In this document: in pieces, positions 30,258-42,065 of the stretch
How the letters are laid out: each line of letters starts with the position of its first letter
How positions within the stretch are numbered: the stretch's first letter is position 1
Made by a program: the position numbers and the translations under genes
From: Fodinicurvata sp. EGI_FJ10296
GTDB taxonomy: Bacteria; Pseudomonadota; Alphaproteobacteria; DSM-16000; Inquilinaceae
Reading direction: 5' to 3'
DNA length: 64,000 nucleotides
Assembly: GCF_040712075.1 (NCBI RefSeq)
Contig: NZ_JBFCVL010000003.1
Location: forward strand, 372,001 to 436,000
The notes under the pieces: generated by a model
What the model saw: only the letters and a program-made list of their open reading frames with translations
The model's database searches: none
Told to the model about the DNA's origin: nothing

Positions 30258-33059
30258 CTATCTGCCTGCCGCTGCCGGCTGCCTGGATCGGCCGGACTGC
30301 CGTTGTGCGCGGTACCACTGCATCAGGAAGACCGCGAGCAGCAGCGCCAGCGCCGGAATGAACATCCACTGATTGGCAGGGCGGTCCTCTGCCGGCTCAA
30401 GAACGGCCAGCACATCCCACCCGATTTCGACCCCGTACCGCTCGGCCTGGCTGCCATAGCGGACATTCATGATGTTGACCTCGTCGCCCATCGTCATGAG
30501 GCTCATGCCTGCGCCTTGCAGCCGATCTTCGCCCGACCCCGGCTCCCCGACCGGCAGCATCACCGTGCGGGTAACGTCGTCACCATTGAAATCCAGGCCA
30601 CCAACGACCATGCGAATGTGGCTGCCGGCCGGCTTCTGTTCGACGCGTTCCACAAGTTCGGTCGCCGGCAGTTCATCATACTGGTCATACAGCATGTTCA
30701 TCCAGTAGCCCGGCTGGAAAAGTGTGAACGCGACCAGCAGCAGCGCGACGGACTCGTACCACTTGCTTCGGATATAGAAGTAATTCTGCGTAGCCGCCGC
30801 AAATACCAGCATTGCCGTGGTCGCCGATACGATGGTCAGGACCAGTTCCCATGTCGTCGTCAACCCGATCAGCAGCAGCTGCGGATTGAAAATGAAGATG
30901 AACGGCAGAGCAACCGTCCGCAGGCTGTAGAAGAACGCCGTTATACCGGTTTTCAACGGGTCGGCCCGTGCGACCGCCGACGCTGCGAACGATGCCAGCC
31001 CCACAGGCGGCGTCACATCCGCCATGATACCGAAATAGAACACGAAAAGATGGACCGCGATCAACGGCATGATCAGACCGTTCAGCGCGCCGATATCGAC
31101 CACGACCGGCGCCATGAGACTGGCGACGACGATATAGTTCGCTGTCGTCGGCAGGCCGAGCCCCAGTACGAGGCTGATCAGCGCCGTCAGCACGAGCATG
31201 ATGATGATGTTGCCGCCGGACAGGAATTCGACCAGCTCCGTCATGACGAGCCCGATGCCCGTCAATGTGACCGTCCCGACGACGATGCCGGCCGCCGCCG
31301 TCGCGATGCCAATGCTGATCATATTGCGGGCGCCGACCACCATGCCTTCGATCAGCTCGCGGATCCCGACCGCAATTTCGGGCACGATCGACTTGTTCTG
31401 CCGGAAAAAGGCGAGGATGGGCCGCTGTGTGACCATGATTCCCATCATCGTCACCACGGCGTAGAAAGCCGACAGACCCGGCGACAGCCGTTCGACCATC
31501 AGGCACCAGATCAGCACGACGACGGGAAGCAGAAAATGCAGCCCGGTCTTGATCGTCGGCCCGGATTCCGGCAGCGAGACGATCTCGGCTTCGGGATCGT
31601 CCAGTTCCAGTTCTTCATACCGGGCGGCATACCAAAGCAGGCCGACATAGACCGCAACGACGGCGATGGCGATGACATAGGACGAAACAGGCCCCATGAC
31701 GTCGCGGATCCAGCCGATCCCCCAGTAAACGATACCCGACAGGATGACGATGCTCGACACGGTGATGCCGAGGGAAATCAGGCTCATGTAAAAGGGGCGA
31801 ACAGTCGGCTTCGGGATGGCGCGCAAATCCATCTTCAATGCTTCGAGATGGACGATATAGAGCAACGCGATATACGAAATCACCGCCGGCAGGAAGGCGT
31901 GCTTGATCACGTCGATATAGGGAATGCCGACGAACTCGACCATGAGGAACGCTGCCGCGCCCATGACCGGCGGCATGATCTGGCCATTGACCGACGCCGC
32001 GACCTCGACGGCACCAGCCTTGTGTGCGGGCATGCCGACCCGTTTCATCAACGGAATCGTGAAAGTACCGGTGGTCACGACATTCGCGATGGAGGACCCG
32101 GAAATAACGCCGGTCATGCCGGATGCGAGCACGGCCGCCTTGGCTGGTCCGCCACGAAGATGCCCCAGCAGCGAAAATGCGACCTTGATGAAATAGTTGC
32201 CGGCGCCAGCCCGTTCCAGCAGAGACCCGAACAGGACGAACAGGAACACGAACTGCGTGGAAACCCCCAGGGCGATGCCGAAAATGCCCTCCTGACCGAT
32301 CCACTGATGGGTCAGGATCCGCTCTACCGAATGACCGCTATGGGCGATCATGTCGGGCATGTACCGCCCTAGATAGGAATAGGCGAGGAAGATGATCCCG
32401 ATGACCATCAGGGGCGGGCCGAGCGCACGGCGTGTGGCTTCGAGCAGAAGCAGCAGGCCGCAGACGCCCGTCACGATATCCAGCAGAATGGGGGCGCCCA
32501 TGCGCTGCGACAACGCATCGTAGAATACATACAGATAGAGCGTCAGCAGCGCCGCCACGATCGCCATCAGCCAGTCGCCCAGCGGGATTTCGGTCGTCGA
32601 TGACGGAACGATCAATGGCCAGGCCGCGATCAGAACGGTCGCACTGCCGGCCAGGAATGCCCATCCGACCGCCTCGCCGGCGGCAAGCTGTTGTGCGGCG
32701 GTGACCGCCATGAAGACTGCCGCGATGCCATAAATCCCGGCCAGAACTGGTTTGCGGCCGCTGGTGGAGTCGACGGCGGCAGGAAAGGCCGTGAAGGCCA
32801 GGAAGAGCGCGAACGCGAGATGCAGGGCGCGCGCTTCGGCGTCATTGACGATGAAGACGCCAAACACGAAAGGCAGCGGCGATGCGTACCACAGCTGAAA
32901 AGCCGACCAGAGGAAAGCGACGACGAAAATGACCCTGGCGGCGATTCCGGCAGGCTGTCTGGCCCCGGTATCGGCCTTGGCGACAAGACTTTCGGCATCC
33001 GGAACAACTTCGTCACCGGCGGCACGGTTGTCCGGCGAGGTGGAAGACTGTCTGGCCAT
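30258..33059 (-). CDS. TRAP transporter permease, fused small and large subunits (DctQM type)
   Basis: Membrane part of a sodium-driven TRAP transporter that works with the TAXI-type binding protein encoded just upstream. In order: soluble N-terminus, a small-subunit-like region of about four membrane segments, then the large DctM-like domain of some 12 segments with conserved loops such as SGMTGVISGSSIANVVTTGTFTIPLM and GLGLPTTANYIVVA. The last 170 residues are a DUF3394 extension (KPAGSHIRMVVGGLDFNGDD, with a PDZ-like VRYGSQAERYGVEIGWDV block). At 933 residues it is the 4TM/12TM fusion type. A strong terminator hairpin separates it from the binding-protein gene. The substrate is unknown; such systems carry dicarboxylates, glutamate or other organic acids. 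Confidence 0.93.
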   Translation of the reverse strand: MARQSSTSPDNRAAGDEVVPDAESLVAKADTGARQPAGIAARVIFVVAFLWSAFQLWYASPLPFVFGVFIVNDAEARALHLAFALFLAFTAFPAAVDSTSGRKPVLAGIYGIAAVFMAVTAAQQLAAGEAVGWAFLAGSATVLIAAWPLIVPSSTTEIPLGDWLMAIVAALLTLYLYVFYDALSQRMGAPILLDIVTGVCGLLLLLEATRRALGPPLMVIGIIFLAYSYLGRYMPDMIAHSGHSVERILTHQWIGQEGIFGIALGVSTQFVFLFVLFGSLLERAGAGNYFIKVAFSLLGHLRGGPAKAAVLASGMTGVISGSSIANVVTTGTFTIPLMKRVGMPAHKAGAVEVAASVNGQIMPPVMGAAAFLMVEFVGIPYIDVIKHAFLPAVISYIALLYIVHLEALKMDLRAIPKPTVRPFYMSLISLGITVSSIVILSGIVYWGIGWIRDVMGPVSSYVIAIAVVAVYVGLLWYAARYEELELDDPEAEIVSLPESGPTIKTGLHFLLPVVVLIWCLMVERLSPGLSAFYAVVTMMGIMVTQRPILAFFRQNKSIVPEIAVGIRELIEGMVVGARNMISIGIATAAAGIVVGTVTLTGIGLVMTELVEFLSGGNIIIMLVLTALISLVLGLGLPTTANYIVVASLMAPVVVDIGALNGLIMPLIAVHLFVFYFGIMADVTPPVGLASFAASAVARADPLKTGITAFFYSLRTVALPFIFIFNPQLLLIGLTTTWELVLTIVSATTAMLVFAAATQNYFYIRSKWYESVALLLVAFTLFQPGYWMNMLYDQYDELPATELVERVEQKPAGSHIRMVVGGLDFNGDDVTRTVMLPVGEPGSGEDRLQGAGMSLMTMGDEVNIMNVRYGSQAERYGVEIGWDVLAVLEPAEDRPANQWMFIPALALLLAVFLMQWYRAQRQSGRSRQPAAAGR

Positions 33060-33156: not shown

Positions 33157-34137
33157 TTACCGGAGGCCTGCTTCTTCGTAGTAGCGCATGGCCCCTTCGT
33201 GGATCGGCGCGGAAAGTCCGGCCGTCGCCATCGATTCGGCTTCGAGGATCGAGAACGCCGGGTGAAGCTGCTTGAACTGCTCCAGGTTCTCGAAGACGGC
33301 GGAAACGACGGCATAGATGCTGTCGGCCGGAACGTCGGCCGACGAAACGAACGTCGCGCCAACACCGAACGTCGTCACGTCTTCGTCGGTACCGTCATAC
33401 ATGCCGCCCGGGATCGTCGCCTCGAAATAGAACGGCTCTTCCTCGATCAGGTCCGTGATGATGTCGCCGGTCACGGGGATCACGTTCGTATCACAGGTCG
33501 TGGTGGCTTCCTGGATCGAGGCGCTGGGATGGCCGACCGTGAACAGGATCGCATCGACGCGGTTGTCGCACAGCGCCTGTGCCTGTTCGCGGGATGGCAG
33601 TTCCGAGGCCAGTTCGAGATCGTCGAACGTCCAGCCGTAAAGCTCGAACAGCATTTCCACAACGCCGCGCTGACCGGACCCCGGATTGCCGACATTCACG
33701 CGCTTGCCCGGCAGATCCTCGAAATGTTCGATCCCGCTATCGGCACGCGCGACGACGGTGAACGGTTCGGGATGGAGCGAAAAGACGGCACGCAGATCTT
33801 CGTTGGCGCCCGCTTCTTCGAATTGGTCGGTGCCGTGATAGGCATGGTACTGCCAATCGGACTGGACGACGCCCATGTCCAGCTCGCCCTGGGCGATGGC
33901 GTTCAGGTTGAAGATCGAACCGGCTGTGCTCTCGGCCGAGCAGCGCAGGCCGTGTTCGTCGCGACCCTGGTTGACCAGACGGCAGATCGCGCCACCGGCC
34001 GGGTAGTAGACGCCGGTCACACCGCCAGTGCCGATGGTGACGAATTGCTGTTGCGCGTTGGCCTGGCCAACCGATCCCAGCGCAACCATACCTGTCGCGG
34101 CCAGCGCGATCGCAGATGTCGTAACCACTTTTTTCAT
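33157..34137 (-). CDS. TAXI-family TRAP transporter solute-binding protein
   Basis: Periplasmic ligand-binding protein of the TAXI branch. It has an N-terminal signal peptide (MKKVVTTSAIALAATGMVALG, cleaved near ANAQQQ), then FVTIGTGGVTGVYYPAGGAICRLVN, the TAXI signature that names the family's GTGGxxGxYYP block. The rest is the usual two-lobe fold with NVGNPGSGQRG for ligand contact. The length, 326 residues, is normal. GGAGGACATGAACC stands before the ATG. It is the first gene of the transporter operon, with a candidate promoter at 34288-34316. Confidence 0.93.
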   Translation of the reverse strand: MKKVVTTSAIALAATGMVALGSVGQANAQQQFVTIGTGGVTGVYYPAGGAICRLVNQGRDEHGLRCSAESTAGSIFNLNAIAQGELDMGVVQSDWQYHAYHGTDQFEEAGANEDLRAVFSLHPEPFTVVARADSGIEHFEDLPGKRVNVGNPGSGQRGVVEMLFELYGWTFDDLELASELPSREQAQALCDNRVDAILFTVGHPSASIQEATTTCDTNVIPVTGDIITDLIEEEPFYFEATIPGGMYDGTDEDVTTFGVGATFVSSADVPADSIYAVVSAVFENLEQFKQLHPAFSILEAESMATAGLSAPIHEGAMRYYEEAGLR

Positions 34138-34488: not shown

Positions 34489-36258
34489 TCACCCGCGGAG
34501 TACCGCGAAAAGCGCGGCCGCGACGGCAATGATCGATATGGCGGTCACGGCCCGCTGGCCGACCGCCCGGTTGACGGCATCCTCGATCCCTGACCGGCGG
34601 CGGACACTGTCGTCCCAGACCGACTGGACACTGGACCTGACACAGCGGACCGCGGAACCTGAATACTCCGACACTTTCCGGGCAAGGCGAACGGAGGACG
34701 CCGCCAAAGCCACCGCAGGCGGTGACGAGAGCGCCAGCAGGTCACCCTGGGGCACACGCCAGGCTTGCCGACCCCGGACCGCGAGCATGGAAGCCGCCGC
34801 CACGCCAAGTCCGACGGCGAGCGGCCAGCCGTTCTCCCACAGCCCATAGGCAGAAAACGTATCCGCGATCTTCGATGCCGGCGCGATCCACCAGATCGCC
34901 ACCTGCCCGGACAGTATCGACGCCGCAGCGGTACCTGTCAGGATCCGGCGCGCGGGGCCGGCGGCACTGCCGTCGTTGGCAGTCGGCCGCCAGGGTGCGA
35001 ATATATAAAGGAACCGCAGCACCAGCAGTGTCGTGGCGACCGCTGACAACGACAGCAGGGTGACGATCCGATCGGCCGCTTCCGTAGACGCCCCTTCGAT
35101 GGCGCTTTTCAGGGTGAGTTTTGCGACCGCCCCGCTCGACAGGGGCAGACCGGCCAGAGCCAGCGCCCCAACGCTTGCCAGCAGAATAAAGGCGACGCGG
35201 CTTCCGGCGGTCATTGCACCTTTCTGCCGGGCGCCGACAAGAAGAAACAACCCGCCTTTCGTCAGCCCGTGATGCAGCATATAAACCGTAACCGCGACCA
35301 GAAGCGCGGGCCAGACAGCGGGCGCGGTCCAGCCCACCCCCAGAGCCGCAGCCAGTATCCCCATCTGGCTGAGGCTGGAATAGGCCAGCACCGCCTTGGC
35401 ATCGTCCTGCGCGACGCCGCATATCACGCCATAGAACGCCGTAAAGAGACCGATGACGATCAGAACCGTACCCCCGGCCGACCACGGATCGAGCCCGATC
35501 GGCAGGAAGGTGATCATGCCGAACAGACCGGCCTTGATCATGGTACCGGAAAGAACCGCGGAAGCGGGCGCCGGTGCCGCCGGGTGAGCCAGCGGCAGCC
35601 AGACATGCAACGGGAACAACCCCATCTTGATGGCGAAAGCCAACGCAAACAGGACGATTGCGACGGCATTCGGGCCCGGCGGGTTCAATGCCAGCCGTGC
35701 GTCGGCGATGGAGATGCCACCCGACGTTACGGCCGCCAGCATCATACCGACAAGCAATGCGGTTTCGCCGATCACCGCCAGCACGATGTACACCGACCCG
35801 GCATGGAGCGCCTTGTCCGATTGGTCGTGCACCACGAGAACATAAGACGCCAGCGACATCATCGCGAAGAAGAGATAAAAGCTGGGGAAATCCCGCGCGA
35901 TCAGCAGACCGAAATTGCCGGCCATTACCAGAAGAAACAGCCCGGCGAATCGCCGGCGGGGCGAGGACGGCGACAGATAGGCGCCGGCGTTCATTGCCGC
36001 CAGAAGCCAGAGAAACGCGGTGAAGCCCAGCACCGCCCGGCCGGTCGGCGTCATGACGAATCCGGCGCCGAACAGAAAATCGTGCAGGACAACGCTCCTC
36101 CCGTCCGGGACAAAGGCGATTGCGGCCAATGCCGGCAGGGGCGCGATCCATCCCGTGCGCAGAATTATGCGCTCGAACGCGGGCACCAGTGCGGCCACTG
36201 CCATGACCGCCGGCAAAACCGGCGTCAGCACCAGCAATATGGTCGAGAGCGACATCAT
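34489..36258 (-). CDS. Proton/cation antiporter-type subunit, third copy (NuoL/M/N-MrpA/D family)
   Basis: A polytopic membrane protein of about 589 residues, of the family that forms the ion channels of complex I and Mrp antiporters. The TM7 lysine is in AIKMGLFPLHVWLPLAHPAA and the TM8 lysine in SGTMIKAGLFGM. At the place where the family has its TM5 glutamate (F-x-E-L/M-S-L), this protein reads FYLFFAMMSLASY, so the glutamate is alanine. Residues 500-560 form a charged, largely cytoplasmic extension before a final membrane anchor (AVTAISIIAVAAALFAVLRG). The ATG at 36258 overlaps the stop of the preceding gene. It is the last of eight coupled genes. Confidence 0.88.
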   Translation of the reverse strand: MMSLSTILLVLTPVLPAVMAVAALVPAFERIILRTGWIAPLPALAAIAFVPDGRSVVLHDFLFGAGFVMTPTGRAVLGFTAFLWLLAAMNAGAYLSPSSPRRRFAGLFLLVMAGNFGLLIARDFPSFYLFFAMMSLASYVLVVHDQSDKALHAGSVYIVLAVIGETALLVGMMLAAVTSGGISIADARLALNPPGPNAVAIVLFALAFAIKMGLFPLHVWLPLAHPAAPAPASAVLSGTMIKAGLFGMITFLPIGLDPWSAGGTVLIVIGLFTAFYGVICGVAQDDAKAVLAYSSLSQMGILAAALGVGWTAPAVWPALLVAVTVYMLHHGLTKGGLFLLVGARQKGAMTAGSRVAFILLASVGALALAGLPLSSGAVAKLTLKSAIEGASTEAADRIVTLLSLSAVATTLLVLRFLYIFAPWRPTANDGSAAGPARRILTGTAAASILSGQVAIWWIAPASKIADTFSAYGLWENGWPLAVGLGVAAASMLAVRGRQAWRVPQGDLLALSSPPAVALAASSVRLARKVSEYSGSAVRCVRSSVQSVWDDSVRRRSGIEDAVNRAVGQRAVTAISIIAVAAALFAVLRG

Positions 36259-37778
36259 AGCAATGTGTACTCCCGCTCGACGATCAGGATCGCCCATTGC
36301 AGCGGGCTGGCGGCAAAGGCCGCGAACAGACCGGCACCGACAGCAGCGGCGGCCGTAAACACGGCGGGAATGACAAGGGCCGGCTTTGCCTCCCAGACGG
36401 CTCCGCGCCAGGCCAATCCCGGATCGCGGTCCGGCCAGGGGTGCACCGGCGGGCGAAACCAGACGGCATAAAGGATCGGCAAAAAGTAAGCGGCATTGAG
36501 CAATGAACTGGCCGCGAGGACGGCGACGACCCAGTACTGGCCGCTCTCGATCGCGCCGATGCCCAGATACCACTTGCTCACGAACCCGGCCAGGGGCGGC
36601 GTTCCTACCATGCCGAGCGCCCCGGCGGAAAAGGCCAGCATGGTCGCCGGCATGCGCCAGCCGACACCGGCCATTTCATCGATTTCGTGGATGCCCAGTG
36701 TCTTCTGAAGTGTCCCGGCGCAGAAGAACAGGGTGATCTTCATCAGGCCCTGGTGGACGAGATGCACCAACCCGCCGGCAAGGGCAACCGGCCCCAGCAT
36801 TGCCACGCCAAGCACGATGTACGACACCTGGCTGACGGTCGAGTAGGCCAGCCGCCGCTTGAGGCCGCGCTGGGCCAGCGCGATCATGCTGGCACCCAGG
36901 ATCGTGACCGATGCGGCGATGGCCAGCGGCAGTGCGACGCCGAGCGCGGTGGTCAGTTCGATACCATAAAGATCGAGGACGACGCGCAGAATGCCGAACG
37001 CGCCCGCCTTGACGACGGCGACGGCGTGCAGGAGCGCGCTGACCGGCGCTGGCGCGACCATCGCGTTCGGCAGCCAGCCGTGGAACGGCATCATCGCCGC
37101 CTTCACGGCCAGGCCGCCGACCAGCAGCACGAAGCACGCGGTCAGTGCCGCGCGGTCGTCCAGCACATGGGCGGCCAGTTGTCCCGCCTGGCCGAAGCTG
37201 AGTTCGCCCGCCATGGATTCCAGCCAGACCGCGCCGATCAGGAATGCAGCACTGCCGGCCATGGTATAGCGCAGATAGCGCCGTCCCGCAGCGAGTGCCG
37301 CCCGATCTCCGCCATGAACGACCAGGGGATAGGTCGACAGGGTCAGCAACTCGTAGAACACGAAAAAGGTCAGCGGCGTCCCGGCAAGGGCGATACCGGA
37401 GGTCGACGCCACGCACAGATTGAAAAAGCCGAAAAACCGCCGTTGATCGGGCGTCCCGGCCAGATAGGCCAGCGCATAGATCGTGGTCACGAACCACAGC
37501 ACGGCCGAGAGGCTGACGAACAGCAATGCCAGGGCATCGATCCGGAACGACAGCGCCATGCCGGGACCGATCGGGAGTTCCACGGCGAACAGCCGACCCT
37601 GCTGAACGCCGATCATGGCAATGGCCAGGACGATGAGCTTGGCCGTCGCGCCAGCCATGGTCCATATGGACCGCGCCCGGCTATGGGCGTCGCTCAGCAG
37701 GAACACCGCCACCGCCGGCAACAGCGAACAGGCGATCAGTACCAGTGGCAGCGCCTGGGACAGGATTGCCTCGGCCAT
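36255..37778 (-). CDS. Proton/cation antiporter-type subunit, second copy (NuoN/MrpD family)
   Basis: A 507-residue membrane protein with about 14 predicted helices. It has the TM5 glutamate in FFVFYELLTLSTYPLV, the TM7 lysine in GLAVKAAMMPFHGWLP, and the TM8 lysine in VVKAGAFGILR, so the complete set of ion-channel residues is present. Later conserved parts are STVSQVSYIVLG and MKITLFFCAGTL. GAGAGGG stands before the ATG at 37778, which supports that start over the GTG-like open region upstream. Its first base overlaps the stop of the upstream copy (TAATG), and its end overlaps the next gene (ATGATG). Part of the Mrp/Mbh-like complex. Confidence 0.9.
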   Translation of the reverse strand: MAEAILSQALPLVLIACSLLPAVAVFLLSDAHSRARSIWTMAGATAKLIVLAIAMIGVQQGRLFAVELPIGPGMALSFRIDALALLFVSLSAVLWFVTTIYALAYLAGTPDQRRFFGFFNLCVASTSGIALAGTPLTFFVFYELLTLSTYPLVVHGGDRAALAAGRRYLRYTMAGSAAFLIGAVWLESMAGELSFGQAGQLAAHVLDDRAALTACFVLLVGGLAVKAAMMPFHGWLPNAMVAPAPVSALLHAVAVVKAGAFGILRVVLDLYGIELTTALGVALPLAIAASVTILGASMIALAQRGLKRRLAYSTVSQVSYIVLGVAMLGPVALAGGLVHLVHQGLMKITLFFCAGTLQKTLGIHEIDEMAGVGWRMPATMLAFSAGALGMVGTPPLAGFVSKWYLGIGAIESGQYWVVAVLAASSLLNAAYFLPILYAVWFRPPVHPWPDRDPGLAWRGAVWEAKPALVIPAVFTAAAAVGAGLFAAFAASPLQWAILIVEREYTLL

Positions 37779-39289
37779 TATCGACCCTCTCCGGCCCAAC
37801 CGGGCTCGGCCATGGTCAGGGGCAGGATGCCGCCCCCGGCAATGCCGACGGCTATCGACGAAAACGCCAGGAGCAGGGCGACAACCTCCAGCGCCGGGCG
37901 GCGACGCCCGAGAATCCTGTCAGCGACAGCCTGGAACCGGCTATCGGGCAAGGGGCGGAAGGCGTATGCGAAAATCTTGAACATGTAGGCCGCCGACAGG
38001 AATCCGCCGCCGACGATCGGCACGACCCACACATATGCATCGCTCGCCATCGCCGCCCGCAGCATCAGCCACTTCCCCAGAAAGCCTGCACTGGGTGGCA
38101 ACCCCATGATCGAGACGCCGGCAACGGCGATCGCCATCATCGCCACTGGCATGGTCCGGGTCGATCCAATGAGCACACGCAGATGGTCGCTGCCGGCCGC
38201 GACGACGATGGACCCGGCAGCCAGGAACAGGGCGGCTTTTGCCAGTCCATGGGACAGCGCATGAATGACGGCGCCGGACCATGCCTCAGCGGCGGCTTCG
38301 GGCATTCCGGCGGCGATGATCGGGATTGCGACCAGAAGATAGCCCATCTGGGCAACCGTCGAATAAGCAATGATCGGCTTCAGCCGCGACTGCCGAAGCG
38401 CCTGGATCGAGCCCCAGACAATCGCGCCGGTGCCGAGCAGACCGAGCAGCACGGGCGCGGCCGGTGGCACGATGCCGGCAAACGGGCCCGTCCACAGCCG
38501 CAACAGGAACAGCGCCGCGGCCTTGACCAGCAGCGCCGACAAGATGGCGCTGACCGGCGCGACCGCACCGGTATGAGCCGGTGGCAGCCACCCATGCAGC
38601 GGCCACGCGGCCATCTTGATCAGCAGCCCGACGGTCATCAGCGTGACGCCGGCCAGGACAATACCGGCGCCATCGACCGACAGTGAAACCGGAATCAGCA
38701 TCTCCGGGACGAGCCCATGCCCGTCCAGGCGCCCGGTCACCGCGTAGATCAGAGCCACTCCCATCAGATAGATCAGCGACGCGCCGGTCGCCACCAGCAG
38801 ATACCGTATCTGAGCGGTCAGCGCCCTGGCGGTCCCGGAAAGGGCGATCAGTGCCACGCCGGCCAGACCCGTGACCTCCAGCGTGACATAGGCGGTGAAC
38901 AGGTCGGAGGTCAGGAACAGCGTGTTGAGGCCGGCCCACAGGAAGAGGATCGTGGCCCAGACCGCCGGCGACCGCGCATACCAGCCGTCTTCAATCAGGA
39001 TATGGACGCCCGCGGCAGCGAGGACACATGCCGCCATCAGCACCATGATGGCCGCCGCCCGGTCGGCCAGCAACGCTATGCCCAGAGGCGTCGGCCAGCC
39101 GCCCACCGTCGCCCCGATCGTACCGCCGACGGCCACGACGGCGGTCAACACGATGGCCGCGGCAGCCACGAAGACGAGCGCAGTCGCCGCCAGCCGCGAC
39201 ACATGGCGTCCCGGCGCCAGGGCGGCCGAGGCCGCAAACCCGATCGGACCGAGGATGACGGCGGTGAAAATCAGATCCGTCGGCTGCAT
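37778..39289 (-). CDS. Proton/cation antiporter-type subunit, first copy (MrpD/NuoM family)
   Basis: A 503-residue membrane protein. TM5 glutamate in YVTLEVTGLAGVALI, TM7 lysine in LLIKMAAWPLHGWLPPAHT, and TM8 lysine in ALLVKAAALFLLRL are all in place, as expected for a functional ion-channel subunit. SRLKPIIAYSTVAQMGYL follows in the family's usual position. It starts directly after the MrpC-like gene, one base from its stop, and matches the position that mrpD (or mbhH) has in related operons. Which ion it moves, proton or sodium, cannot be judged from these residues. Confidence 0.9.
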   Translation of the reverse strand: MQPTDLIFTAVILGPIGFAASAALAPGRHVSRLAATALVFVAAAAIVLTAVVAVGGTIGATVGGWPTPLGIALLADRAAAIMVLMAACVLAAAGVHILIEDGWYARSPAVWATILFLWAGLNTLFLTSDLFTAYVTLEVTGLAGVALIALSGTARALTAQIRYLLVATGASLIYLMGVALIYAVTGRLDGHGLVPEMLIPVSLSVDGAGIVLAGVTLMTVGLLIKMAAWPLHGWLPPAHTGAVAPVSAILSALLVKAAALFLLRLWTGPFAGIVPPAAPVLLGLLGTGAIVWGSIQALRQSRLKPIIAYSTVAQMGYLLVAIPIIAAGMPEAAAEAWSGAVIHALSHGLAKAALFLAAGSIVVAAGSDHLRVLIGSTRTMPVAMMAIAVAGVSIMGLPPSAGFLGKWLMLRAAMASDAYVWVVPIVGGGFLSAAYMFKIFAYAFRPLPDSRFQAVADRILGRRRPALEVVALLLAFSSIAVGIAGGGILPLTMAEPGWAGEGR

Positions 39290-39290
39290 G

Positions 39291-39602
39291 TCAGCGCCGG
39301 TCCCCCGGCTCGTCCAGGGTCAACCGGCCGGTTTCCCGGTACAGCCGAATGACGATCGCCAATGCCAGCGCCGTCGCGGCAACCGCCACGACCAGTCCCG
39401 TAATCACCATGGCCTGCGGTATCGGGTCGGGCACGCCGCCGCCACGAACGGCGACGGCGCAAAAGGTCATGAACACACCGCTGCCGGCAATGTTCAGCCC
39501 CAGGACCCGGCGCACCAGATGACGCCGGGCGAACAATCCGTGCAGCCCGATAACGAACAGCGCCGTGCCACTCAGGAAATATAACGCGACCGTCAACGAC
39601 AT
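39291..39602 (-). CDS. mrpC: MrpC/NuoK-like subunit
   Basis: A 103-residue protein with three membrane helices, the size and layout of NuoK, MrpC and MbhG. Characteristic stretches are FVIGLHGLFARRHLVRRVLGLNI and VPDPIPQAMVITGLVVAVAATALALAI; the last is the family signature (DP-x-PQALVLTAIVI). The ATG at 39602 (MSLTVALYF) starts at the first helix, and an upstream open region is ignored. In complexes of this type the subunit contacts the MrpA/D-type channel subunits. Short gaps to both neighbours show one operon. Confidence 0.9.
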   Translation of the reverse strand: MSLTVALYFLSGTALFVIGLHGLFARRHLVRRVLGLNIAGSGVFMTFCAVAVRGGGVPDPIPQAMVITGLVVAVAATALALAIVIRLYRETGRLTLDEPGDRR

Positions 39603-39618
39603 GGTTGTTTCCACTATC

Positions 39619-40758
39619 CTATGCGTCGCGATCCCGACCGTCGGACGGGTCGGTGCCGGACTCGTTGACGCTTGTCGTATCGGCATCGCGCATCTGCGGC
39701 CACCGCTCGCGGTCTCCCAGCGCCAGGGCCGCCAGGACCACTGCTATCCCGACGGTCAGGGCGATCTCGACCGCAATGATCACCACCTTCTGATCGCCGC
39801 CGATGAACGGAATGCCGCCGAAACCCGGCCCAACGACCGACGCGATCGCCAGCACCGCCGCCAGCACGGCGATCGCGGCCGACACCGTGGCGGTCACGAG
39901 CCGCGACCCGGCCGCAGGGTGGCGAAGCCGCCCGGAAAGGACAGCCACGATCAGCCCGGCGGCGGCAACCGTCCCGCCCTGAAAGGCGCCCCCGGGCCGA
40001 TCGGCGCCGATCGCCACCAGATAGCCCGCCGTCACAAGCGCCACGGGCAGGATGACGGTCGTCAGCAAGCCCAGTGCCGCGTTGCTGTCGCGGGGAACGC
40101 GATGATACTGCGCTGCCGATGGTGCCTCGGCGGCTGGTCTGCCATCGGCGCCGACCAGCACGACACCCAGAAGCGCAATCATCAGAATGCTCTTCTCAAG
40201 CAGCGTATCCAGCACACGAAAGCTCAGCAGGACGGCATTGACCGCATTGCCGAGTCCGGTCGCTTCGGTCTGGGCGAGCGCCAGCGTTCCGGCGCTGTCC
40301 ACCCCGGCAGATCCGGTCACGGCCAGATCGGTGAATTCGGCAAAACCAATCAGCCCGACACCCCCGATGCCTAGCGCGAGCAACAGGACGGCCATACCAC
40401 CGGCCCACCGTTCGCTCCGCCCCGCCGATTCGTCGATGTCGACGGCGTCGCGCGGCGTCGCCCCTTCGGGCGACCGCGCGATGTGCCCCAGCCGTGCCAG
40501 GGTACCGATGAGCAGGACGCCCGTCAGTCCCGCGCCGATCGCTGCCTCGGCCACGGCGATATCCGGGGCATCGAGCCGGAACCACGCCAGCGACAGGATG
40601 ATGCCATAGCTGATGAACAGCATCACGCCGGCCATGATGCGCGGGTGGGCCAGTGCGGCCCACGCCAGCACCGGCAGCAGGGACGCCAGCGCAATATCGA
40701 ACGCCGCGCCGCTGTCGGCGATCGTCGCGGCAAGGATGTCCTCAGCGGCGTCCGCCAT
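39619..40758 (-). CDS. Fused MbhD-MbhE-MbhF-like subunit (MrpA C-terminal part plus MrpB)
   Basis: A 379-residue membrane protein that joins modules usually found apart. Residues 20-90 (LAHPRIMAGVMLFISYGII, DAPDIAVAEAAIGAGL) match the DUF4040/MbhD part of the MrpA C-terminus. Residues 110-200 (NAVNAVLLSFRVLDTLLEKS) match MbhE, also part of long MrpA. Residues 245-350 (AGYLVAIGADRPGGAFQGG) match MrpB/MbhF, with the GGGFQGG-like signature. A Pro/Asp-rich cytoplasmic linker follows each helix bundle. In standard mrp operons the first two are part of MrpA and the third is MrpB, so this is a rearranged fusion. Its start overlaps the stop of mrpG (TGATG). Confidence 0.88.
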   Translation of the reverse strand: MADAAEDILAATIADSGAAFDIALASLLPVLAWAALAHPRIMAGVMLFISYGIILSLAWFRLDAPDIAVAEAAIGAGLTGVLLIGTLARLGHIARSPEGATPRDAVDIDESAGRSERWAGGMAVLLLALGIGGVGLIGFAEFTDLAVTGSAGVDSAGTLALAQTEATGLGNAVNAVLLSFRVLDTLLEKSILMIALLGVVLVGADGRPAAEAPSAAQYHRVPRDSNAALGLLTTVILPVALVTAGYLVAIGADRPGGAFQGGTVAAAGLIVAVLSGRLRHPAAGSRLVTATVSAAIAVLAAVLAIASVVGPGFGGIPFIGGDQKVVIIAVEIALTVGIAVVLAALALGDRERWPQMRDADTTSVNESGTDPSDGRDRDA

Positions 40759-41069
40759 CAGCTATCGGCCCCGGGCCGATCGGTGTCGGACCGACCCGGG
40801 TCAACGGCGACGCGCGCCGCGACGAGCTGCGAGACCGTCGCCGCCGACACCAGCGCCAGACCCCAGATCAGCACCAGCTTGACGATAGTGGCGAATTCGC
40901 CCGACAGAAGGCAGAGGCCGAGGACGATCAGTCCCAGGCCGACGGTATCGGCCTTGGTCAATGCGTGCAGGCGGCTGAGCAGGTCCGGCAGCCGCAAAAT
41001 CCCGAGCGTTCCGACCAGAAAGAAACCGGTGCCGGCGACCAGCAGGAGCACGGCGACGATGGCGATCAT
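40758..41069 (-). CDS. mrpG: MrpG-like subunit
   Basis: A 103-residue protein with three predicted helices and the signature GTLGILRLPDLLSRLHALTKADTVG, diagnostic for MrpG/MnhG/MbhC. A short polar C-terminal tail follows. It overlaps mrpF by four bases (ATGA), which indicates coupled translation. MrpG is a small accessory subunit needed for assembly or stability of the antiporter complex; its exact role is not known. Confidence 0.93.
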   Translation of the reverse strand: MIAIVAVLLLVAGTGFFLVGTLGILRLPDLLSRLHALTKADTVGLGLIVLGLCLLSGEFATIVKLVLIWGLALVSAATVSQLVAARVAVDPGRSDTDRPGADS

Positions 41070-41365
41070 GGTTGCTCCTCCCCCGGTTCGGCTGTTTCCG
41101 ACCGGCTTTCCTGCATCGCCAGACCGGATCTGGCCAGCGCCAGGCCGGTTACCGCGGCGAGCAAGCCGAGGATCAAGGCCGCGTCGATCGCCGCCTCTTC
41201 ACCCGTCGCGATTCCCAGTATCAACAATATGGCGATGCCCGTTGTTCCGAACAGTTGGACCGCCAGCATGCGATCGCCCGGCCCCGGTCCCCGATGGACC
41301 CTGATCAGCCCGACGCCAATGGACAACAGCAGGATCGTCGCGACGACATAAAGAAATGCGCTCAT
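41066..41365 (-). CDS. mrpF: MrpF-like subunit
   Basis: A 99-residue protein of three helices with GLIRVHRGPGPGDRMLAVQLFG, the MrpF/MnhF/MbhB signature (R-x-x-x-GPS-x-DR-x-x-A-x-D-x-x), and the helix GIAILLILGIATGEEAAIDAA. In the archaeal respiratory complex MbhB, which it resembles, this small subunit lies next to the sodium-moving part. Its start overlaps the mrpE stop by four bases and its stop overlaps mrpG, consistent with equal production. Confidence 0.93.
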   Translation of the reverse strand: MSAFLYVVATILLLSIGVGLIRVHRGPGPGDRMLAVQLFGTTGIAILLILGIATGEEAAIDAALILGLLAAVTGLALARSGLAMQESRSETAEPGEEQP

Positions 41366-41904
41366 CGGCGGCCCCTTAATGATCCCCTTGTCATGTGGCG
41401 TATCCGCCGCTCTTCTTCGTGCACCCCGGCAACGATCGACGGGTCATCGACGAGAACGTGGACCCGGACCCGGTCGCCCGCGCTGCCCGCCGTCAGCGAC
41501 CCCGGCACCAGACTGACGACACCGGTGAACAACGCCCGCGGCCATCCATCCGGTGTCGACGTTGGAATATCGGTTAAACGCGGCGTTATGTTCAGGCGCG
41601 GGGCCAGAACACGCCCGGAGACATCGACCGCGCCAGCCAGGGCGCGCCAGAGAAAACCCGGTATCCAGGCAAGGAACCGTATCGGCGACAGGTGGGGGCC
41701 AGAGCGTGGCCCGGATTCCGGCCCCGGACTCGGCACTGCAAGGACCACGAGTCCGGCAGCCGCCGCGGCCACCGCGATTCCAGGCACCAGCATCGATGCG
41801 GCACCGCCGGTAAGCACCAGCCAGACCGCCGCACAGACGGTCGCAACCGCCGCATACCGGCGAACGGTGGCCGGCTCGGGGCGGCGCGAAATGAGGTGTC
41901 CCAT
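41362..41904 (-). CDS. mrpE: MrpE-like subunit
   Basis: First gene of the eight-gene operon, about 180 residues from the ATG at 41904. Two N-terminal helices (YAAVATVCAAVWLVLTGG and VPGIAVAAAAAGLVVLAV) are followed by the cytoplasmic MrpE domain, with TGVVSLVPGSLTAGSAGDRVRVH corresponding to the conserved S-x-TPGT-x-x-x-x-GD-x-L-x-VH block, and a charged tail. An open frame continues to 42054 but crosses the promoter region of pstS and has no MrpE similarity. It is divergent from pstS, sharing a 160-base regulatory region. Confidence 0.9.
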   Translation of the reverse strand: MGHLISRRPEPATVRRYAAVATVCAAVWLVLTGGAASMLVPGIAVAAAAAGLVVLAVPSPGPESGPRSGPHLSPIRFLAWIPGFLWRALAGAVDVSGRVLAPRLNITPRLTDIPTSTPDGWPRALFTGVVSLVPGSLTAGSAGDRVRVHVLVDDPSIVAGVHEEERRIRHMTRGSLRGRR

Positions 41905-41939
41905 GGCTAAGGATCTCGTTGGATCGCGTGCGGGAGCGA

Positions 41940-41973
41940 CTGTCACAAAACAGTAATGGAAACGAAATATATC
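41940..41973 (+). promoter_or_regulatory. PHO box and -10 element for the pst operon
   Basis: CTGTCACAAAACAGTAAT (41940-41957) matches the PhoB box (two seven-base CTGTCAT-like halves spaced by four bases): six of seven in the first half, five of seven in the second. A TATATC at 41968-41973 is ten bases on, the usual PhoB-to-minus-10 distance, where a -35 element is not needed. The second half also lies in a near-perfect inverted repeat (CAGTAATGGA and TCCATTACAG, 41951-41981), which could bind another regulator. Since PhoB is encoded in the same operon, self-regulation by phosphate starvation is likely. Confidence 0.65.
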
Positions 41974-42065
41974 CATTACAGACCCTCTGTATAGTCCGCG
42001 GCGTTCAATCAGGGAAGTGACAACGCGCTTCGCCGAACCCACATTACAGGCCAATGGAGAAATCC

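Follow-up and report, generated by a model that had tools for sequence, protein, structure and literature searches.

A cluster of eight genes related to the subunits of Mrp antiporters, complex I and the archaeal membrane-bound hydrogenase (Mbh) raises a simple question: does it encode an ion transporter that works alone, or the membrane half of a larger machine whose catalytic part lies elsewhere? The cluster sits in a stretch of 64,000 nucleotides from Fodinicurvata sp. EGI_FJ10296 (contig NZ_JBFCVL010000003.1, positions 372,001 to 436,000), the whole of which we call the window. An initial annotation, made from the letters of the window, had left both answers standing. Our data point to an antiporter of the group 3 Mrp type that works alone, exchanges monovalent cations for protons and has three antiporter-like subunits, a reading to which, judging from sequence, we give a probability of about 85%.

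The eight genes run from 41904 to 34489 on the minus strand, and Pfam or NCBIfam identities were obtained for all eight proteins. First comes mrpE (MbhA-like, 41362..41904; MNHE, PF01899, E 3.9e-18), which begins with ATG at 41904 and shares an ATGA overlap with mrpF (MbhB-like, 41066..41365; MrpF_PhaF, PF04066, above cut-off); mrpG follows (MbhC-like, 40758..41069; PhaG_MnhG, PF03334, above cut-off). The fourth gene (39619..40758) encodes a 379-aa protein that joins the C-terminal part of MrpA (MbhD plus MbhE) to MrpB (MbhF), here termed A'B. Next is mrpC (MbhG/NuoK-like, 39291..39602; Oxidored_q2, PF00420, E 8.5e-22), the best solved match of which is 6cfw_G; its open reading frame (ORF) is open to 39686, and the conserved part begins at the ATG near 39602. 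Three antiporter-like subunits complete the set, named here D1, D2 and D3 in gene order: D1 (37778..39289), of the MrpD/MbhH kind (Proton_antipo_M, PF00361, E 1e-52; best solved match MrpD, 7qru_D); D2 (36255..37778; PF00361, E 1.2e-56), about 50–60% identical to its closest relatives; and D3 (34489..36258; PF00361, E 8e-38), with an MrpA-N/NuoL-like fold seen in an AlphaFold model. Neighbouring genes overlap by 1–4 nt or lie apart by a few nt and at most about 16 nt (between A'B and mrpC), as would be expected of a single operon. The Pfam domains thus bear out the coordinates and the order E, F, G, A'B, C, D, D, D first given for the locus, apart from two start sites: the ATG near 37778 is the most likely start of D2, the ORF of which is open to 37799, and 36258 that of D3. 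Content and order also uphold the statement that the genes follow mbhA-H rather than mrpABCDEFG.

In A'B the MbhD (PF13244) and MnhB (PF04039) domains are found above the Pfam cut-off in one protein, with a match to MbhE (PF20501) between them that falls below it (E 1.4e-4), and the protein matches the MBH and MBX chains 6cfw_D, 6u8y_D and 6u8y_E. The initial annotation was therefore right to place the MbhD, MbhE and MbhF equivalents in a single protein. The AlphaFold model of A'B has a confidence (predicted local distance difference test, pLDDT) of 60, too low for the model to be interpreted. Among close relatives in which the region can be read the three parts are fused in 13 of 19, while in six MbhD stands alone and MbhE is fused to MrpB; the fusion thus comes and goes. 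An alignment of 13 fused proteins shows conservation of the motifs APDxAxAEAAxGAG, FRxxDTLLE and PGGAFQ, acidic ones among them. A fusion of the MbhE+MbhF type also occurs in the MBX of Pyrococcus (6u8y_E). A search of plasmids with the fused protein returned five partial matches, each below 60% identity.

To which known class does such an operon belong? Group 3 Mrp systems – itself a loose grouping – are those without mrpA and with one or several mrpD genes (PMC8415708), and the operon is of this already described type: there is no mrpA gene, three mrpD-like copies are present along with mrpB, C, E, F and G in an order unlike mrpABCDEFG, and the large subunits fall together with their counterparts from other group 3 loci that share this order. 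The closest published arrangement is the third cluster of Microbacterium sp. TS-1, mrpFGBCDDAE (PMC5703873), which – compared by published gene order, not by sequence – has F, G, a B-type gene, C and three large antiporter-like genes in the order seen here, with mrpE last rather than first; the actinobacterial relatives from Nesterenkonia (L084, L134) have this TS-1 form. The stand-alone Mrp of P. furiosus, mrpEFGBB'CD, is likewise group 3, without mrpA and in the same order, although it has one antiporter-like subunit where the operon has three and B and B' are separate genes; deletion work indicates Na+ as its coupling ion (PMC8415708). A group 3 operon of 'Ca. Nitrospira alkalitolerans' carries two extra NuoM/L-like genes after mrpD (PMC7784846). 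Canonical group 1/2 Mrp (7qru, 6z16, 7d3u, and a separate locus of the host genome, L042, so that the host has an ordinary Mrp as well) shares its subunit families with the operon but differs in its mrpABCDEFG order, its large MrpA and its two antiporter-like subunits as against three; the operon has neither mrpA in first place nor an mrpABCDEFG or mrpA'CDEFG order. The arrangement had been put forward as unusual. Given the same order in 28 relatives and its earlier description as group 3 Mrp (PMC5703873, PMC8415708, PMC7784846), it is not, and with the large subunits lying inside bacterial clades of the same gene order the case for novelty of the arrangement essentially lapses. The cluster adds one more case to a type that has been described but little studied.

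A critical issue is whether a redox partner exists. The mbh-like order, the MbhD/E/F domain make-up and the occurrence of relatives of D2 beside nuo genes in green complex I loci (L109, L117 and others) could all be read as signs that the operon supplies the ion-moving half of a machine whose other genes lie elsewhere. The host genome speaks strongly to the contrary. In this assembly (4.83 Mb, 32 contigs, 99.4% complete) searches for the NuoB and NuoD families gave one match each, and each of these lies in the complex I operon (contig C5), making a partner of the NuoB/D kind very unlikely. Nine proteins of the genome match Proton_antipo_M: three belong to complex I, two to the canonical mrp operon on C2 (L042), three to the operon studied here and one to contig C1. 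The last (G000 C1:302423-303067, L043) stands alone, outside mrp and nuo operons, and is probably DabB of an inorganic carbon transporter.

Relatives of the operon tell the same story. Searches for NuoB, NuoCD, NuoD, NuoF, NuoG, NuoH and NuoI found none of them in any of 28 close relatives within the fetched DNA, which reached at most about 10 kb per side and less at contig ends; the positive controls, namely the host's complex I locus and several green complex I loci, were matched. The operon itself lacks a NuoH-type connector. In green complex I (PMC9040806; L109, L117, L129, L130, L133, L140) a D2-type and a second MrpD-type subunit do lie side by side, but inside a complete complex I, where they take the place of NuoL, unlike the situation here. 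Mbh (6cfw) shares with the operon the gene order and domain content of its membrane arm, mbhA-H, but is encoded with hydrogenase genes that are missing here and has a single MbhH and unfused D, E and F. We consider a redox-coupled complex highly improbable. Thus the absence of a catalytic partner, first noted for the window, extends to the whole genome as far as NuoB- and NuoD-type proteins outside complex I are concerned, and of the two roles originally offered the stand-alone antiporter is supported while that of an ion-moving half is opposed by the genome search and by the relatives.

The likeness to Mbh invites another explanation: that the operon came recently from archaea as an Mbh-type module and has lost its hydrogenase. 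Gene order is in keeping with this, as is the fact that MbhH is the best solved sequence match of both D2 and D3. Trees of the large subunits (FastTree with 109 sequences, IQ-TREE with 43) argue against it. In both trees each of D1, D2 and D3 shares a starred clade with its counterpart from the close subfamily, nested among bacterial relatives of the same gene order; MbhH, MrpD, MrpA, NuoL, NuoM and NuoN lie outside these clades. In addition, all ten parts of the operon scored in the window have higher median scores to the close subfamily than to other group 3 loci or to the host's canonical mrp, and GC content is even across the window. A recent archaeal origin finds no support in the trees or in the even GC, and we regard this history as extremely unlikely.

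If the operon is a stand-alone group 3 Mrp, what has become of MrpA? As a gene it is absent, as had been observed: the MrpA C-terminal domains are confined to the A'B protein, and the operon has three Proton_antipo_M genes. Taken as a loss the observation misleads, for the model of D3 (pLDDT 85) resembles MrpA and NuoL most closely, with a VIA-align Z of about 40 to both over residues 8–514. Beyond these lie extra C-terminal helices at 516–534, 540–569 and 573–590, predicted with low confidence, the helices past about residue 515 being poorly determined. The fold suggests that D3 may take the distal, MrpA-N/NuoL-like place, such that in functional terms MrpA would be split rather than lost, but the lateral-helix region of the model is of low confidence and the tree places D3 outside MrpA and NuoL. 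With D3 closest in structure to the N-terminal half of MrpA and to NuoL, the operon would have one extra channel subunit relative to ordinary Mrp, and not the two that had been counted.

Mapping of D1, D2 and D3 onto E. coli NuoL by alignment revealed a further peculiarity of D3. D1 and D2 retain the Glu of transmembrane helix (TM) 5 and the Lys residues of TM7 and TM12 (E138, K225 and K406 in D1; E150, K233 and K409 in D2), and the channel lysines are conserved in all three D subunits (TM7, TM8, TM12), with K213, K244, K290, K336 and K382 retained in D3. At the TM5 Glu position, however, D3 has A134, and it carries E167 (TM6) in the column of NuoL D178. This holds for all 17 D3 proteins aligned (16 from close relatives plus that of the window), none of which has Glu at the TM5 position and each of which has it at the TM6 position, whereas the third subunits of other group 3 loci show the reverse pattern. 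In NuoL the K229–D178 pair is used together with E144 (PMC9271201, PMC13324432). By comparison with that pair we infer that D3 works through E167–K213, and a short literature search found no description of such a swap. This subfamily-wide shift of a charged residue to a neighbouring helix may be the one feature of the operon that is new.

More tentatively, and with the odds in our own estimate somewhat against it, the close relatives might be Mrp antiporters that act alone, form a subfamily with three proton channels per complex and have shifted the essential carboxylate of the distal channel from TM5 to TM6. If true, this would mean a different proton-to-cation stoichiometry and provide a natural test of the Glu–Lys ion pair in complex I-type channels. 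The debated role of the TM5 Glu–TM7 Lys pair could also be probed by ordinary mutagenesis in an antiporter free of redox chemistry.

How might the complex work? By analogy with Mrp and MBH, subunits E, F, G, A'B and C would form a base for cation handling, with D1 beside C, D2 in the middle and D3 distal, the last held by a C-terminal lateral helix as in NuoL and MrpA. Protons would pass through the D subunits along Glu–Lys–Lys axes – in D3 a pair of TM6 Glu (E167) and TM7 Lys (K213) replacing the usual TM5 Glu–TM7 Lys pair – and their flow would be coupled to opposite movement of Na+ (or K+) via the A'/C/F/G interface. The driving force would be the proton motive force or, for the reverse reaction, a Na+ gradient. 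Na+ is probably the coupling cation. The parts of the operon, their order, their conservation and the absence of the partner sought are observed; assembly order, coupling, cation, direction and stoichiometry are inferred.

Three points weigh against a stand-alone antiporter. The search of the host genome for a partner covered NuoB- and NuoD-type subunits, and while these gave complex I copies only, no exhaustive search was made for partners of other kinds (cytochrome, DabA-like). Several of the relatives' clusters end at contig edges, and in those a distant partner is possible. Finally, the cation is an expectation, and the papers found report no transport measurements for the operon, its close subfamily or any three-channel group 3 complex. 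Bacterial genomes commonly encode such complexes, with their three antiporter-like subunits, which would allow antiport stoichiometry to be tested against channel number.

The substrate itself could differ. A stand-alone transporter of the same build might move K+ or Ca2+, or be linked to the neighbouring genes for phosphate or TAXI-TRAP uptake. The host already has a canonical mrp operon, and the Mrp of Thermomicrobium roseum moves Ca2+ (PMC5703873). Upstream of mrpE, across a gap of 149 bp (41905..42053), lies the divergent pstS, and the gap contains a Pho-box-like pattern at 41940-41957 (+) with 0 mismatches, where 0.06 matches are expected per window. Directly downstream of the operon, on the same strand, are genes for a TAXI-type TRAP receptor (33157-34137, minus) and a fused TRAP permease (30258-33059, minus) that carries a DUF3394 domain at its C-terminus. 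The Pho box could also influence the divergent mrp operon, but it is oriented for pstS, where one is expected anyway. The back-to-back placement with pst, singled out earlier as noteworthy, is real, but the two same-class relatives examined have other neighbours and do not share it. Clustering of flanking ORFs revealed no shared neighbour other than mrp genes; it yielded only shadow ORFs, antisense or frame-shifted, and small clusters of 3–4 loci. On balance we think a different substrate or role unlikely, and return to monovalent cation/proton antiport as the preferred reading.

Twenty loci were taken from the window's own genome and from genomes of the same class (17 from other genomes), most with the order E-F-G-A'(-B)-C-D-D plus a third D. 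A single scan of GTDB contigs with an alignment of D2 gave 80 named loci, which were typed with the window's proteins; 26 of the 80 belong to the close subfamily by our own score thresholds (D2 of at least 400 bits plus a D3-type neighbour), and two further close relatives from the class (L172, L173) bring the total to 28. These come from Gammaproteobacteria, Betaproteobacteria, Alphaproteobacteria, Actinomycetota, Kiritimatiellota, Verrucomicrobiota, Desulfonatronum, Binatota and others. Within the limits set by contig ends and mechanical ORF calls (in which an extended 5' end can make neighbours trade places), gene order is the same across the 28, except that mrpE is last in Nesterenkonia and Desulfonatronum. 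Within the class, a D3 profile matched nearly every genome through related subunits, yet exceeded 500 bits in 3 of 385 (that of the window, G173 and G241), indicating that the close subfamily is rare there.

Several loci of the wider set depart from this plan. Four group 3-type loci (L108 from Syntrophomonadaceae, L083, L090 and L092) carry four or five consecutive antiporter-like subunits, with no complex I-type partner within the fetched DNA. In Pseudoalteromonas sp. XMcav2-N (L107) D2 and D3 form one open frame of 1069 aa, an apparent fusion. Canonical and group 3 mrp clusters adjoin in Alcanivorax (L068) and in a member of the Burkholderiales (L078), and in a deltaproteobacterial locus (L131) two group 3-type clusters lie next to one another in opposite orientations.

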